Of a stretch of 64,000 nucleotides of DNA, positions 19,401 to 43,359 are shown in pieces (position 1 is the stretch's first letter; each line of letters opens with the position of its first letter). Where the stretch lies: the NCBI RefSeq assembly GCF_014202975.1, contig NZ_JACHHZ010000002.1, positions 992,001-1,056,000 on the forward strand, written 5' to 3'. The position numbers and the translations under genes were made by a program. Below the pieces are notes generated by a model, which made no database searches, was not told where the DNA came from, and was given only the letters and a program-made list of their open reading frames with translations. This DNA comes from Povalibacter uvarum. Lineage in GTDB: Bacteria > Pseudomonadota > Gammaproteobacteria > Steroidobacterales > Steroidobacteraceae.

Positions 19401-19486
19401 GTCCAACGGCGCATTGCGGGATTTGCCGATCCGCGGAGCGGGTCATCGATTACACTGCGCACCGGCATGAGGAATGTGCGCCTGTA

Positions 19487-20050
19487 ATGTCCGAGTCCCT
19501 CGACCGGTCTGTCGAGTTGAGTGCTGGCGAATCCGAGAGACGCCAGCGCTTCGAGGCGCTGTGCCTGCCGTTCAGGACGGACCTGTACCGCTTCGTCTTC
19601 TGGCTGTGCCGCAACCGGTCGCTCACCGAGGACGTGATGCAGGAGACGCTGCTGCGTGCCTGGCGCTCCATCGGGTCGCTGGGCGAAGAGAAGGCCGTCC
19701 GGTCGTGGTTGTTCACGATCGCGCGGCGCGAGCTCGCCCGCACGTTCGAACGCAAACAGCTCGAGACCATCGACCTCGACACCGCTCTCGAATCGGGAGA
19801 CGCGGCATTGATCGCGGACAGCAGCACTGAAGTGAACGATATGCGCGCCGCGCTCCTCCAGCTCGATGAGTCGTATCGCGAACCCCTGATGATGCAGGTC
19901 CTGTTCGGTTATTCCACAGAGGAGATCGCCACGCACATGGAGCTCAGCGTGCCGGCCGTGCTGACGCGGCTGTACCGGGCGCGCCACTTGCTGCGAAAGA
20001 AGATGCTGGGCGAAGCCCCGGATGAGAGTCGTGACGATGAACTGCCTTGA
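19487..20050 (+). CDS. ECF-type RNA polymerase sigma factor
   Basis: A 187-residue extracytoplasmic-function sigma factor. Region 2 is at about 25-85 (RTDLYRFVFWLCRNRSLTED, VMQETLLRAWRSI) and region 4 at about 120-175 (LDESYREPLMMQVLFGYSTE, EIATHMELSVPAVLTRLYRA) with its helix-turn-helix. No extra C-terminal domain. Start at ATG 19487. The stop overlaps the start of the anti-sigma gene by 14 bases, the usual coupling for such pairs. Targets are not visible; its own promoter and the nearby bufferin operon are candidates. Confidence 0.92.
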   Translation: MSESLDRSVELSAGESERRQRFEALCLPFRTDLYRFVFWLCRNRSLTEDVMQETLLRAWRSIGSLGEEKAVRSWLFTIARRELARTFERKQLETIDLDTALESGDAALIADSSTEVNDMRAALLQLDESYREPLMMQVLFGYSTEEIATHMELSVPAVLTRLYRARHLLRKKMLGEAPDESRDDELP

Positions 20051-20717
20051 GTTCCGCCGGACCGTAGGCGCGGAGCCGCATTCCGCGGCGCCGGAAATTG
20101 CGCAACACGCTGCGCAGTGTCCGGCGTGCGCCCGCTACTGGCGCGAGATGCAGCAGATGGACTCGCTCATCCATCGCGCGTTCGCGATCGACGCGGATAC
20201 CGTTGCGCGCCCTGATGCGTCGCGCCGGCGCGCATTGCGCTTTGGCCTGGCTGCGAGCGTGATGCTGGCCATCGCGATGGCCGTTCTCTGGATCGCGTAT
20301 CCGAGAGATACGCTGGCCGAGGAAGTCGTCCAGCACGCACTGCACGAACCCGGCTCTCTGCGGACGACCCCGGATCGCGTCAGCGAAATGGAATTTGTCG
20401 ATGTCCTCGCGCGATCCGGTCTGAGGTTGCGCCCCGGCTTCGACGGCCGCGTTTCCTACGCGACGAACTGTCCCTTCCGCGGCCGCGAAGTCCCGCACTT
20501 CGTCGTGCAGACATCACAGGGACCCGCGACAGTGATGCTGCTGACGGAAGAGAAGGCGGTGTGGAAGCCTCAGCATTTCGACGAGGAAGGTTTCCGCGGC
20601 GTCATCATGCCCGCACCGCGCGGCGTGCTCGCTGTGCTGGGTCAGGACGTGCCGGTGGATCAGGTGGCGCAACAGGTGCTCGCGGCAGTGGAGTATGCGC
20701 CGGCGATGCAGTGGTGA
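20037..20717 (+). CDS. Zinc-binding anti-sigma factor, single-pass membrane protein
   Basis: A 226-residue protein. The cytoplasmic N-terminus has the zinc anti-sigma motif HAAQCPACARYW (HxxxCxxC), followed by one membrane helix (about residues 67-86, FGLAASVMLAIAMAVLWIAY) and a periplasmic domain of about 130 residues resembling DUF3379-type anti-sigma proteins. It should hold the upstream ECF factor until a periplasmic signal arrives. An alternative GTG/ATG start at 20022 would add five residues. The HxxxCxxC motif also allows redox or metal sensing. Confidence 0.82.
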   Translation: MNCLEFRRTVGAEPHSAAPEIAQHAAQCPACARYWREMQQMDSLIHRAFAIDADTVARPDASRRRALRFGLAASVMLAIAMAVLWIAYPRDTLAEEVVQHALHEPGSLRTTPDRVSEMEFVDVLARSGLRLRPGFDGRVSYATNCPFRGREVPHFVVQTSQGPATVMLLTEEKAVWKPQHFDEEGFRGVIMPAPRGVLAVLGQDVPVDQVAQQVLAAVEYAPAMQW

Positions 20718-20731
20718 GGGTGACGGAACTC

Positions 20732-20800
20732 GTCATTCCCGCGAAAGCGGGAATCCACTCCGCTCCCAGCCAGATGGACTCCCGCGTTCGCGGGAGTGAC
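20732..20800. repeat. REP-like palindrome, copy 4
   Basis: GTCATTCCCGCGAAAGCGGG and partner ACTCCCGCGTTCGCGGGAGTGAC. It lies between the convergent anti-sigma and bufB genes and is probably their shared terminator region. Confidence 0.85.
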
Positions 20801-20817: not shown

Positions 20818-21660
20818 TCACGCGGCGGCTACTTCCCCTTCACCCGCGGCCTCCCTCGCTCGATCCAGCTCGCCCACCAACTCCGCAACGGCAGGAATAT
20901 TCCCGTCCCGCTCGATCATCGTCGAGACATTCGGAAAGCGTGTGAAGGCCTTGCGATACAGGTCCCACACAGCTTCCGGCACCGGTTGATCGTGCGTGTC
21001 GATGAGGTACTCGCCCTGCCGCTGGTGCCCGGCGAGATGCATCTGTCTCACGCGCTGGGCAGGGATTGCCGCGAGAAAGGTATCTGCATCGAATTCATGA
21101 TTCACGCTGCTGACGTAGATGTTGTTGACGTCGAGCAGCAAGTCGCAATCGGCCTCAGCCGTCAGAGCGGCGAGAAATTCCCATTCCTGCATCTGCGAGT
21201 GCGTGTAGGTCACGTAGCTCGATACGTTCTCGAGCAGTATGCGGCGGCCCAGAAAGTCCTGAACCTGCTTCACGCGCCGCGCGACATGCAGCAATGCTTC
21301 CTCGGTGTAAGGAAGCGGCATCAGATCATGCAGGTTGACGCCATCGACAGCCGTCCAACACAAGTGATCCGAGATCCATTCGGGCTCGACACGCTGAGCC
21401 AGTGCCTTCAGGTCGCGCAGGTACTGCATATCCAGCGGATCCACGCTGCCGATCGACATCGACACTCCGTGCATCACGAGCGGATAGCGTTCGCGGAATC
21501 GATCCAGGAAGTGCAGGGGACGTCCGCCCGGCACCATGTAGTTCTCACTGATGATCTCGAACCAGTCGACCGCCGGCCGATCGCGCAGAATCTCGATGTA
21601 ATGATCCGGCCGCAGCCCCAGTCCAAAACCCAGCGACGTTGTAGATGCTCTATTCGACAC
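20818..21660 (-). CDS. bufB: MNIO (DUF692) multinuclear iron enzyme, BufB-like RiPP-modifying protein
   Basis: Member of the DUF692 family of multinuclear non-haem iron-dependent oxidative enzymes (MNIOs), which modify cysteines of precursor peptides. Seen: LGFGLGLRPDHYIEI at the start, WFEIISENYM, VMHGVSMSIGS, WISDHLCW, ILLENVSSYV, LLLDVNNIYVSSVNH, QMHLAGH and DTHDQPV, which together give the His/Asp/Glu ligands of the TIM-barrel metal site. GTG start at 21660 is preferred (GGAG upstream, 280 residues); upstream GTG/TTG starts would lie in repeat DNA. It follows the six-Cys precursor gene, its expected substrate. No bufC gene is adjacent. Confidence 0.9.
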   Translation of the reverse strand: MSNRASTTSLGFGLGLRPDHYIEILRDRPAVDWFEIISENYMVPGGRPLHFLDRFRERYPLVMHGVSMSIGSVDPLDMQYLRDLKALAQRVEPEWISDHLCWTAVDGVNLHDLMPLPYTEEALLHVARRVKQVQDFLGRRILLENVSSYVTYTHSQMQEWEFLAALTAEADCDLLLDVNNIYVSSVNHEFDADTFLAAIPAQRVRQMHLAGHQRQGEYLIDTHDQPVPEAVWDLYRKAFTRFPNVSTMIERDGNIPAVAELVGELDRAREAAGEGEVAAA

Positions 21661-21705
21661 TGTGCTCGCGCTCCGGTCCGGAAGCGCGCGATAGCGCCTC
21701 TTCAC

Positions 21706-21738
21706 CAACCGCTAACCGCTAACCGCCAACCGCTTCCT
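21706..21738. repeat. GCTAACC tandem array
   Basis: Units CAACCGC-TAACCGC-TAACCGC-CAACCGC, 7 bp each, in the spacer between the precursor gene and bufB. The same units occur at 25088-25119. Confidence 0.75.
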
Positions 21739-21751
21739 CCAAAGCCTACAC

Positions 21752-21772
21752 GCTGCAGTCGAAGACTGCAGC
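21752..21772 (-). terminator. Perfect 9-bp hairpin between bufA and bufB
   Basis: GCTGCAGTC-gaa-GACTGCAGC. It lies 25 bases after the precursor stop and has no U-tract, so it is more likely a partial attenuator or a 3' stabiliser that keeps bufA mRNA above bufB than a full terminator. Its stem-gaa-stem form resembles the GTCCGGCT-gaa-AGCCGGAC family. Confidence 0.4.
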
Positions 21773-21796
21773 TTCCGTAGCCCCGGCCTCGCCGGC

Positions 21797-22069
21797 TCAG
21801 GACTTCTTCTTCTCCGCGGCAGCCTTCGCCTTCGCCGCGTCGCACTCCGCCTTGGTCAGCGAGAGGTATCCATGTCCCTTGCAGCTGTTCTGGCCCTGAC
21901 AGGAATTCTGTGCGGTCGCACAAGCCGATGTGCCCTTGCACGAATTCACACCCTCGCACTTCACCTTGGCTTCGTCGGCCGCAGCGGCGGGCAGGGTGGT
22001 GAGCGTGCCGAACAGCATGGCGGCAGCAGTCGCGATAGCGGCGCCGGAGACCTTCGTTGAATGCTTCAT
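21797..22069 (-). CDS. bufA: Six-cysteine bufferin-type RiPP precursor (BufA-like)
   Basis: A 90-residue protein with a Sec signal peptide (MKHSTKVSGAAIATAAAMLF, cleavage near AAAADEA). A short core has six Cys at 38, 44, 50, 57, 63 and 76 in CEGVNSCKG, CQGQNSCKG and related spacing, followed by a Lys/Ala tail. This matches the signal-peptide-bearing bufferin precursors modified by DUF692 enzymes, where modified cysteines bind copper. Start at ATG 22069 with AGGAAGG upstream. First gene of the minus-strand operon with bufB. Confidence 0.87.
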   Translation of the reverse strand: MKHSTKVSGAAIATAAAMLFGTLTTLPAAAADEAKVKCEGVNSCKGTSACATAQNSCQGQNSCKGHGYLSLTKAECDAAKAKAAAEKKKS

Positions 22070-22245
22070 ATGAATACCTTCCTGTATCGGATGACCAGAG
22101 AATGAAACGCAGGACGACGAAATCATCGTCCTCGCGCATCAGACCGGCCGTTGCGCCAATTCATTACATCGTGATCGATCCGTTGACGGTGCAATAAGTG
22201 CTCGAGTCCGCCGGTCTCCTGCGACAACCGACCGAGGAGAACGAA
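22070..22245. promoter_or_regulatory. Divergent control region of bufA and doxX with an imperfect palindrome
   Basis: This 176-base region must carry promoters for bufA (minus) and doxX-glpK (plus). At 22111-22132 there is an imperfect palindrome with arms AGGACGA and TCGTCCT, 18 of 22 positions symmetric, about 42 bases upstream of the bufA start. It is a candidate operator. No convincing sigma70 or ECF -35/-10 pair was assigned. Confidence 0.35.
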
Positions 22246-22718
22246 ATGACGATCGCAGCACGAATGGCCTGGATCAATGCACGGACACAGCCGCTCGAAC
22301 GATTCGCGCCGCTGCTCGCTCTCGTCACTCGGCTCTACGTGAGCTGGGTGTTCCTGAAGTCGGGTTGGCTCAAGCTGTCGGACTGGGACAGCACACAGTT
22401 CCTCTTCCGTGAGGAGTATCGAGTCCCGCTGTTGCCTCCGGACCTCGCCGCGGTCGTGGGAACCGCCGGGGAACTCCTGTTCCCGCTCTTGTTGATCTTC
22501 GGCATCTGCGGTCGACTGAGTGCCCTCGGCTTGCAGGCCGTCAATGTGCTTGCCGTCGTCTCGTACTCCCATGTGTTGCTGCAGGAGGGCTTCGAGGCCG
22601 CAATCGCGCAACACTACCTGTGGGGCTTCATGCTGCTGGTGCTGATGGTGTACGGGCCGGGCAGGTGGTCGATGGACGGTGTAGTCTCTGACCACCGATT
22701 CGCCACCGTGGCCAGAGA

Positions 22719-22722
<4 letters not shown>
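22246..22722 (+). CDS. DoxX family membrane protein
   Basis: A 158-residue inner-membrane protein with four predicted helices (about 22-42, 68-90, 95-115, 122-142) and the DoxX landmark [22 protein letters not shown] 22246 follows GAGGAG. DoxX-type proteins are regular companions of bufferin operons (BufD), which fits its place divergent to bufA. Here it is also fused into a unit with glpK, overlapping its start by four bases. Its likely role in bufferin loci is membrane-side redox or export support, which is not established from sequence. Confidence 0.85.
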
Positions 22723-40965: not shown

Positions 40966-43359
40966 CTACCTCACCAACGCCACTTCCATCTCCCTGCTGT
41001 CCGCTCTCCCTCTGTCATCCACCGCACGCACGATGTACTTGCCTGAATGCTCGGGATTCCACCCGATCGCGATGCCAGGCGCTGCGGTCCCCACGTAGCT
41101 CTCATCCACGAACCAATGCAGTCGCCTTACGTCACTGTCCGCGTTCGCAGCGAGCGGAATCGACTCGTCGCCGACGCGTTGCGCACGAACGGTGTAAGTC
41201 GCCGCGATCACCGGTGAGGTGATGCGCGGCGGTGTGCCGCTCGGTACGTCGCGTTGGCAATCAGCGGGAGCGGGAGGGCGACGACGCGGCATGCCGGCTT
41301 GTGCGAAGAGCTGGAGCAACTCCGTCGGCCAGTACTCGAAGACTTCGCTGCGCGTCGTGGCAGCATTGTAAGGGGGGCATGCCTGCTCACCGGTGCGGGT
41401 GTCGATCCAGATGCGGCGATGGATCTGGCTCACGCGGATCGGCGAAACGCCGGGGATGTACCACGTGCTCGTGATCTGCGGGCAATCCGCGTTGGGCAGA
41501 TCACCGGAGGCGCTGCAGACATCGACGCGTTCGAGTCGGGGCGGTTGGCGGAAGATCGGTTCGGTGAGAGTCGCATCGCTGCCTGCAATGGCATCGGTCA
41601 GACGGAAGAGCAGCGGCGCTGCGGCCTGCACTCCGACGAACGCTGGATTGCCGTGGCCGTCGAAGTTGCCGACCCACACGACGAGCACATAAGGGCCGAA
41701 CACTCCGGCGGTCCACGCATCGCGGAATCCCCAGGACGTTCCGGTCTTCCAGGCGACACGCAGACGGTCCTGTTTACGCGTGAACGGATCATCCGGCCGC
41801 GGCGCGCTGCGAAGCATTTCGAGCGTCATGAAGCTCGCCTCTTCGGAGAGCAGGCGCAGACCCGGCGTAGCGGGGTCATCAGCGGAGTAGCGGAGCGGCG
41901 CGATCTGCCCGCGATTCGCGAGCATCGCGTAGAGCATCGCGGCTTCCTCCATCGTCACTTCGCCTCCGCCCAGCGCGAGCGCGAGACCATAGTGCTGCTC
42001 CGACGCCATTCGCGAAATGCCGGCACCTTTCAGGAACTGATAGAAGCTCGGTTGGGCGAGCTGCGCCGACAGCGCAATCGCAGGGATGTTGCGCGACCGT
42101 GCAAGTGCGTCGGTAGCCGTGATCGGTCCGACGAAGCGGCCATCGAAATTCTCGGGGCTGAAGGGGCCGAAGGATTGCGGTGCGTCCTTCAGTACTGTCA
42201 GTGGATGTATGTAGCCCTGATCGATCGCGAGGGCGTAGATAAAGGGTTTCAATGCGGAACCGGGCGAACGCTTTGCGAGCGTTCCGTTCACTTGTCCCTG
42301 GATCGCGGCGGAACTGAAGTCGGCGGAGCCCACCATCGCGCGTACTGACATGTCGCGTGTGTCGACGAGCAATGCGGACGCATTGTTGATACCGATCGCT
42401 TGATGCTCGCGGACGTAGTTCGTGATGACGCGCTCGGTCAGGCGCTGGAGCGGTAGGTCGAGCGTGGTCCAACCTTCCTCATTCCCGCGTACGCGGGAAT
42501 CCGTCCCCCCGGATCGGATGGACTCCCGCTTTCGCGGGAGTGACGGAAGCACTACGTCTCTCGCCAGCACCGCATTCACAAAATGCGGTGCCGCGAAGGG
42601 CAGGTCGCTCAATCGCCCATAGCGCAGCGGGAGTGACACATATTGATGTGTCGAATCGGCGGCCGGGTGCTCCTCCTGCCAGCGCGCAAACAATCGCTCG
42701 CGAGCAGCGAGCAGCTCCGGAGGCTCATCGCGCGATGGATCGCGACGCGCGGGCGACTGAGGGATCAGGACCAGAGTCAGCGATTCGGCCAGCGTCAGCT
42801 TGCCGGCGGGCTTTCCGAAATAGATGAGGCTCGCCGTGCCAACGCCCTGGACGTTGCCGCCGTAAGGCATGAGGTTGAGATGCGCTTCGAGCAGGTCGTG
42901 CTTCGAGTACTGCAGTTCGAGTTGCACAGCGCGAGCGATCTGTACGAGCTTGCCGCCGATCGTGCGTGTGTTGAGGTCGTACTTGAGCCGCGCCAGCTGC
43001 ATCGTGATCGTCGAACCGCCGACGCGAGTGCCACCTGTGTAGGTCGTGAAAGCGGCACGAATGATCGCGGCGGGATTCACGCCGAGATGCCCGTAGAAAT
43101 GCCGATCCTCGTGGAGGAGCAGCGCGTCGACAAGTTCCGGCGAAACCTGTTCGAGCGGTGTCCAGAGACGGTACTGCTGATCCGAGGCAAGTGTCAGTCG
43201 CAGCAGCCGGCCTTTGCGGTCGAAGATCGCGGTGGAGGAGGGGATCTGTGCGGAGAGCGGATCTCGTGGCCAGGCGTGGATCGCCGCAATCGAGGCAAGG
43301 GCGATGATTGCGCCTGCGATTGCAGCGGTGAGACGTCTTGTGAGCTTGTCCGAGAGCAT
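40966..43359 (-). CDS. pbpC: Penicillin-binding protein 1C, with an in-frame REP insertion
   Basis: Bifunctional peptidoglycan synthase, 797 residues. Order: membrane anchor (about 10-30); transglycosylase domain with Glu84 in HEDRHFYGHLGVNP and GGSTITMQLARL; linker; transpeptidase domain with nucleophile Ser368 (SALK), SRN, and KTG in AWKTGTSWG; C-terminal BiPBP_C domain (about the last 90 residues). All catalytic motifs are intact. Residues about 271-296 (LPSLPRKRES.. to ..RVRGNEEG) are encoded by a complete REP palindrome (42478-42544) in the linker, an insertion not found in ordinary PBP1C. It lies downstream of the alpha-2-macroglobulin gene, its usual neighbour. Confidence 0.93.
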   Translation of the reverse strand: MLSDKLTRRLTAAIAGAIIALASIAAIHAWPRDPLSAQIPSSTAIFDRKGRLLRLTLASDQQYRLWTPLEQVSPELVDALLLHEDRHFYGHLGVNPAAIIRAAFTTYTGGTRVGGSTITMQLARLKYDLNTRTIGGKLVQIARAVQLELQYSKHDLLEAHLNLMPYGGNVQGVGTASLIYFGKPAGKLTLAESLTLVLIPQSPARRDPSRDEPPELLAARERLFARWQEEHPAADSTHQYVSLPLRYGRLSDLPFAAPHFVNAVLARDVVLPSLPRKRESIRSGGTDSRVRGNEEGWTTLDLPLQRLTERVITNYVREHQAIGINNASALLVDTRDMSVRAMVGSADFSSAAIQGQVNGTLAKRSPGSALKPFIYALAIDQGYIHPLTVLKDAPQSFGPFSPENFDGRFVGPITATDALARSRNIPAIALSAQLAQPSFYQFLKGAGISRMASEQHYGLALALGGGEVTMEEAAMLYAMLANRGQIAPLRYSADDPATPGLRLLSEEASFMTLEMLRSAPRPDDPFTRKQDRLRVAWKTGTSWGFRDAWTAGVFGPYVLVVWVGNFDGHGNPAFVGVQAAAPLLFRLTDAIAGSDATLTEPIFRQPPRLERVDVCSASGDLPNADCPQITSTWYIPGVSPIRVSQIHRRIWIDTRTGEQACPPYNAATTRSEVFEYWPTELLQLFAQAGMPRRRPPAPADCQRDVPSGTPPRITSPVIAATYTVRAQRVGDESIPLAANADSDVRRLHWFVDESYVGTAAPGIAIGWNPEHSGKYIVRAVDDRGRADSREMEVALVR
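42478..42544. repeat. REP-like palindrome inside pbpC (copy 8)
   Basis: TCATTCCCGCGTACGCGGGA and partner ACTCCCGCTTTCGCGGGAGTGAC. The length keeps the frame, and the element is translated in pbpC between the transglycosylase and transpeptidase domains. Confidence 0.88.

Follow-up and report, generated by a model that had tools for sequence, protein, structure and literature searches.

Bufferin precursors of the BufA2 type (Buf_6/12Cys) are encoded in Buf2 clusters, the closest described counterparts of the locus considered here. Mature bufferins of this type are expected to carry copper-binding thiooxazoles derived from cysteine. In the excerpted text of PMC12452194, these clusters have a strictly conserved bufABC order and no sigma genes are given for them. 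Partners of the DUF2063 type were described as lying almost universally beside MNIO genes, and 70.1% of MNIOs have a nearby DUF2063 gene and about 30% have no local one (PMC13097082, in part). For stand-alone bufferin precursors, located away from MNIO genes, it was proposed that they either receive their modification from another locus or stay unmodified (PMC12452194, in part).

Two further systems are relevant. The sigma-F regulon of Caulobacter is an earlier example of Buf1 operons governed by an ECF sigma factor: in the part of PMC3511200 available, complete operons with DUF2282 precursors, DUF692 and DUF2063 genes are under ECF control, one operon includes a DoxX gene, a motif is shared with the sigma operon, and the negative regulator is a DUF1109 protein. 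The captophorins HvfABC and FonABC also combine an MNIO with a DUF2063 partner; their precursors are of the EGKCG type and their genes lie together. The partner is required for the HvfBC product: no product formed when HvfC (or either protein) was omitted, and HvfB and HvfC purified separately were inactive when mixed, the pair being obtained only on coexpression (PMC13419390, in part). FonBC was described as a stable heterodimer (PMC13097082, in part).

We analyzed a window of 64,000 nt from Povalibacter uvarum (GCF_014202975.1, contig NZ_JACHHZ010000002.1, positions 992,001 to 1,056,000), whose genome, here G000, comprises 6.32 Mb in 11 contigs and is 98.28% complete. Its bufferin locus resembled the Buf2 clusters in having a precursor that matches the BufA2 model, an MNIO that matches the BufB model, a DoxX gene nearby and a DUF2063 gene in the genome. 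In contrast to those clusters, the enzyme and its partner were found at separate loci, each with its own precursor, and ECF sigma and anti-sigma genes adjoined one of them, with a promoter motif in common. It differed from the Caulobacter Buf1 regulon in its BufA2 precursor, its DUF3379 anti-sigma protein and a partner gene that lies away from the locus bearing the motif. Whereas stand-alone precursors are separated from the enzyme, here the enzyme and the partner are separated from each other.

An MNIO Locus Without an Adjacent Partner Gene

The precursor gene at the window locus (locus I), bufA2-I (21800..22069, minus strand; 90 aa), passed the BufA2 model NF050166 (Cu_RiPP_BufA2) with 85.3 bits against a curated cut-off of 60. 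Its sequence CEGVNSCKGTSACATAQNSCQGQNSCKG...ECD contains six cysteines, and the six cysteines of BufA2 were invariant across 11 aligned precursors. Inspected by eye, the N-terminus had a positive start, a hydrophobic signal-like stretch and an AxA-like site. The MNIO maturase gene bufB follows on the same strand (20818..21660, minus strand, with the frame open from TTG 21708), and its product scored 394.2 bits to NF050167 (MNIO_BufB, cut-off 310) and 386.1 bits to PF05114. The true start is likely GTG 21660 and TTG 21708 is doubtful, because GGAGCG lies just upstream of the GTG and this start fits the relatives better, as read from the sequence. The PF05114 match spans residues 28-287 of 296, and no extra domain was seen. 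Solved structures related to BufB by sequence were 3bww, 8hci and MbnB 7dz9, of which 8hci is a DUF692 protein, TglH according to papers.

Divergent from bufA2-I lies a gene for a DoxX-family membrane protein (22246..22722, plus strand; PF07681, 58.9 bits), which fell below the HvfX model NF050144 (55.6 bits against a cut-off of 80). On the other side are an ECF sigma factor gene (19487..20050, plus strand, with the frame open from ATG 19487 and PF04542/PF08281 matches on 19481-20050) and a gene for a DUF3379 anti-sigma-like protein with an HxxxCxxC motif (20022..20717, plus strand; PF11859, 114.4 bits), convergent to bufB. In all eight locus-I stretches found in the genus, doxX adjoined bufA2 and the sigma and anti-sigma-like genes were neighbors. 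The sequence-only reading had described a bufferin-type locus with a six-cysteine, 90-residue precursor, an MNIO gene behind it, a divergent DoxX gene, a convergent anti-sigma gene after bufB and no adjacent bufC, and each of these points was borne out. The canonical bufABC order was thus broken at locus I, where no bufC lies directly downstream of bufB; the only PF09836 match of the genome was on another contig.

The same reading had proposed that a 9-bp hairpin between bufA2-I and bufB could raise the amount of precursor over enzyme. The hairpin (GCTGCAGTC/GACTGCAGC, 21752..21772, minus strand) exists and occurs at a single place in the window. The role as an expression valve found no support: the 101-nt stretch between the two genes folded little better than shuffled sequences (z -1.29; 15 of 200 shuffles equalled or exceeded its stability), and GC-rich stem-loops were seen by eye 3' of bufA in several of the six relatives in which bufB is missing from that position, so a stem-loop is no specific mark of the precursor/enzyme junction. 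Besides, 14 matches to a dispersed repeat, ATTCCCGCGAAAGCGGGAATCCA, which often forms inverted pairs, were found in the window (up to 3 mismatches; 0 expected). One pair sits between bufB and the anti-sigma gene (20735-20797), and the 12 other matches are elsewhere in the window.

The Partner Gene Lies in a Second Half-Operon

Genome-wide family searches of G000, which included the proposed HMM search for DUF2063, returned one MNIO match, one DUF2063 match, two BufA2 matches and no DUF2282 match. The sole DUF2063 (PF09836) match was on contig C4 (domain 41300-41578), and its score of 80.8 bits exceeded the cut-off of 27.2. This gene, bufC, starts 24 nt behind a second precursor gene, bufA2-II, whose product also passed NF050166 (71.3 bits). 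A distance of at least 250 kb separates locus I from this second locus (locus II), even in the case that contigs C2 and C4 are direct neighbors. Therefore, G000 holds two half-operons, bufA-bufB at locus I and bufA-bufC at locus II. A DUF2063-like partner so divergent that PF09836 misses it may also exist. Among the options raised earlier for the missing partner, its location elsewhere agrees with these results, and the same arrangement was found in a second species; the option of a reduced subclass loses ground to the DUF2063 gene found elsewhere in the genome, the partnership of which with BufB we infer.

BufC has 256 aa, and a match to NF050145 (RiPP_RRE_HvfC) covered residues 7-252 with 37.6 bits, well under the cut-off of 142; the BufC from a bufABC-type operon of G001 scored similarly low (34.7 bits). 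A C-terminal RRE domain in BufC is putative, judging from its length, the conserved C-terminal columns and this sub-cut-off match. Searches of BufC against solved structures gave no match at E <=0.001 with the single sequence and none at E <=1 with a 12-row profile, and thus its kinship with 3DEE rests on papers.

Distribution of the Two Loci in the Genus

Based on synteny and HMM content, two conserved loci were recognized among the 14 genomes of the genus. Locus I consists of the sigma, anti-sigma, bufA2 and DoxX genes. In six other species (G001, G003, G008, G010, G011 and G012) its bufA2 stands alone, with no BufB or BufC match within the 9-kb stretches searched. Locus II holds bufABC in G001, G003, G008, G010 and G011. 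The two split species carry bufB at locus I, and in both it is missing from locus II. In the second of them, the Steroidobacter genome G002, bufA-bufB is on contig C59 and bufA-bufC on C28, at least 160 kb apart and away from contig ends, both loci are flanked by genes matching those in G000, and the bufA-bufC gap is 15 nt. Since the same halves occupy the same syntenic places in two genomes, with conserved flanks, misassembly was considered unlikely. Between the two species, identity was 79.9% for BufB and 61.1% for BufC.

In total, two genomes had AB + AC, five had A + ABC, one had A + BC and one had A + ABC elsewhere. The A + BC genome is G012, whose locus II (L089, contig C39, 3750-5885) contains bufBC and no bufA match; its only BufA2 match is at locus I, so the only BufA2 found there is modified in trans, if at all. 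G007 (75% complete) had BC only, with bufB cut by the contig start, and G006 (84% complete) had one BufA2 match over the cut-off, a weak second match and no B or C. No BufA2, MNIO or DUF2063 match was detected in G005, G009 and G013. Another rearrangement of the same genes was observed in the Steroidobacter genome G004, where locus II carries bufA only and bufABC lies on a separate 6-kb contig (loci L101 on C109 and L091 on C129). G001 (L084, contig C1) and G011 (L086, contig C10) each have a further member of the precursor family, accompanied by MNIO and DUF2063 genes of its own; the L084 precursor has EGKCG repeats and EF-hand-like residues.

Rarity of the Split Arrangement

The separation of enzyme and partner was investigated in three sets of sequences. 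Among the best 80 of at least 518 confirmed public BufB relatives, 79 had bufC just downstream, as judged from HMM coordinates, and the exception was the contig of G002 itself. In 60 genomes, our own included, 50 of 52 DUF2063 matches adjoined an MNIO match, the exceptions being G000 and G002. Conversely, 5 of 55 MNIO matches in these genomes were without an adjacent DUF2063 match; they comprised G000, G002, a partial match in G019, an edge fragment in G036 and a divergent MNIO of G004. The latter (L105, contig C281, 2981-4351), a frame of 456 residues whose MNIO match is highly divergent, is far removed from the bufferin enzymes.

In 200 genomes of the family, with at least 150 DUF2063 matches, 134 of the matches listed adjoined a listed MNIO match and 16 did not. 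These 16 included the two split species, two genomes in which the genes were adjacent by the 60-genome check (G036 and G007), nine matches starting within 750 nt of the contig start with the MNIO side off the contig, and two at contig ends (G144 and G096). The last one was a lone DUF2063 gene in G125 (L210, contig C333, 4640-5368), with a transporter-like frame upstream and a dihydrolipoyl-dehydrogenase-like frame as the other neighbor, both named by eye; this genome (66% complete) had no MNIO match. Among the 150 MNIO matches listed, 16 were without a listed DUF2063 match, including G000 and G002, and two of the 16 (G025 and G027) were adjacent to one by the 60-genome check. No report of an enzyme/partner split was found in the literature by title or abstract opening.

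Conservation of Both Halves

The dN/dS ratios between G000 and G002 were 0.109 for bufB, 0.211 for bufC, 0.067 for bufA-I and 0.153 for bufA-II, compared with 0.216 for doxX and 0.313 for the anti-sigma gene. They were calculated by the Nei-Gojobori method with a custom script and are rough, as dS (0.9 to 1.5) is near saturation. All 64 BufB columns conserved at >=97% in 95 other BufB, and all 16 BufC columns conserved at >=95% in 93 others, were unchanged in G000 and G002. In addition, both precursors retained all six cysteines. Both halves thus look selected.

A scenario of decay, in which the split marks the onset of loss and modified bufferin is produced by neither half, can appeal to the 3 of 14 genus genomes without the system, which indicate that it can be lost or lacking. 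However, in two species whose BufB share about 80% identity, the four genes are all retained, their dN/dS is low and each precursor has the full set of cysteines, and we consider decay very unlikely.

Promoter Motif at Locus I

An ECF promoter-like motif, GYAATR-N14-CCGGTC, had strict matches at three places of locus I: ahead of the sigma operon or at its start (19484..19509, plus strand), before bufA2-I (22142..22167, minus strand) and before doxX (22191..22216, plus strand). All three positions (bufA, doxX, sigma operon) had the motif in seven of the eight locus-I stretches; in G012 the only strict match was the sigma copy. The whole genome of G000 (6.32 Mb) contained six strict matches, three of them within 2.7 kb at locus I, and the other three approximate the base-composition expectation (3.6). 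The reversed motif, used as a control, matched once in the whole genome. The motif was absent from the ten other loci examined, nine of which were locus II.

The sigma copy overlaps the first ATG of the sigma gene in G000, G002 and G012, and it could partly reflect coding sequence. A downstream start (TTG 19517 in G000) gives a short motif spacing as in the relatives; from the motif position and the relatives, this is likely the start of the gene. In six of nine locus-II stretches (G001, G003, G004, G008, G010 and G011) an extended -10-like sequence, TGCGTATA, was found; it was absent from locus II of G000, G002 and G012, and G000 has GCGTATA. Locus I therefore looks like an ECF-sigma regulon, and the presence of the motif at locus I and its absence at locus II suggest that bufB is under the ECF sigma factor and bufC is not.

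Origin of bufB

The BufC of G000 and G002 grouped with those encoded at locus II elsewhere in the genus (support 100/99; tree of 37 of 95 rows), and the four loci that best matched precursor I outside its own genome were locus-I precursors. The BufB of both species formed one clade (bootstrap 99-100 where computed). The first bufB tree, which included the very long branch of the divergent MNIO L105, together with the identities hinted at a foreign bufB; L105 was excluded from later trees, and denser sampling weakened the hint. The later trees were built from chosen subsets of 97 BufB rows (37 rows, and 53 rows with 18 new rows). Thus bufB may have moved to locus I within the genome or may have been acquired.

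One variant of a working split system, compatible with the two half-operons, is xenologous replacement. Here another lineage would have supplied bufB, maybe together with further genes, to locus I, and the native locus-II bufB and any incoming bufC would then have been lost, leaving an enzyme and a partner of different origins. In its favor, the BufB of G000 and G002 stood outside the locus-II BufB of the genus in all four best trees, and they share 1 and 2 of 14 genus-diagnostic columns, compared with 3 and 2 of 5 for BufC. On the other hand, the AU test did not reject a single clade with the genus BufB (p 0.112 for 37 rows and 0.364 for 53 rows), the diagnostic columns are few in number, and up to 3 of the 14 in BufB and 2 of the 5 in BufC are shared by unrelated rows. 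The densest tree placed the two BufB with those of G026, Steroidobacter G004 and a Nevskia, and this grouping was weak (75/88). We rate replacement a little below an even chance. The BufB and BufC from the 6-kb bufABC contig of G004 fell outside the genus clades.

Probable Function of the Divided System

With a probability of about 0.8, our preferred reading is a working bufferin system with two half-operons in place of a single operon, in which BufB and BufC pair from separate transcripts. At locus I, bufA2-I and bufB would be expressed, probably from the type of ECF-sigma promoter common to doxX and the sigma operon, and bufA2-II and bufC would be expressed from a different transcript at locus II. 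BufB, the MNIO oxidase, and BufC, its DUF2063 partner, would pair in the cytoplasm, and BufBC would convert cysteines of both precursors before Sec export. The exported peptides would then bind excess copper in the periplasm. Within this reading, we infer the pairing in trans, the modification of both precursors, the copper function and the ECF control.

By analogy with HvfBC, from which no product was obtained when either protein was left out, BufB should need BufC. Likewise, the arrangement in G012, with its only BufA2 away from bufBC, points to action in trans. Nevertheless, the result that separately purified HvfB and HvfC were inactive when mixed means that assembly of BufBC from two transcripts is not a given, and we regard it as the main caution on pairing in trans.

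Combining regulation with origin, we tentatively suggest that bufB is on the ECF sigma factor together with one precursor and DoxX, and bufC is on another, perhaps sigma-70, promoter with the other precursor. Maturation of both peptides would then be gated by the induced supply of one subunit, a BufB that is maybe foreign and is paired with a native BufC. We rate this combination as less likely than not.

A reduced subclass, in which BufB no longer requires a partner and modifies BufA2-I by itself, the locus-II bufC being a leftover, is very unlikely and was rejected as the leading reading. In its favor, no bufC stands beside bufB, about 30% of MNIOs have no local DUF2063 gene (PMC13097082, in part) and MovX works without a partner, though with a winged helix domain of its own (PMC12452194, in part). 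Against it, BufB has no added domain, and an intact, constrained BufC (16 near-invariant columns, dN/dS 0.211) is kept elsewhere in the genome in two species.

Implications

The arrangement is a real dispersal of a known RiPP pathway, common to two species, and not a reduced enzyme class. If bufB and bufC are indeed controlled separately, BufBC need not come from one mRNA. This naturally split lineage makes it possible to test whether the BufBC heterodimer requires a single mRNA, how specific BufBC is for its precursors, and whether gene-neighborhood mining misses such systems. For MNIO enzymes without a neighboring partner, a genome-wide check is advisable before they are called reduced.
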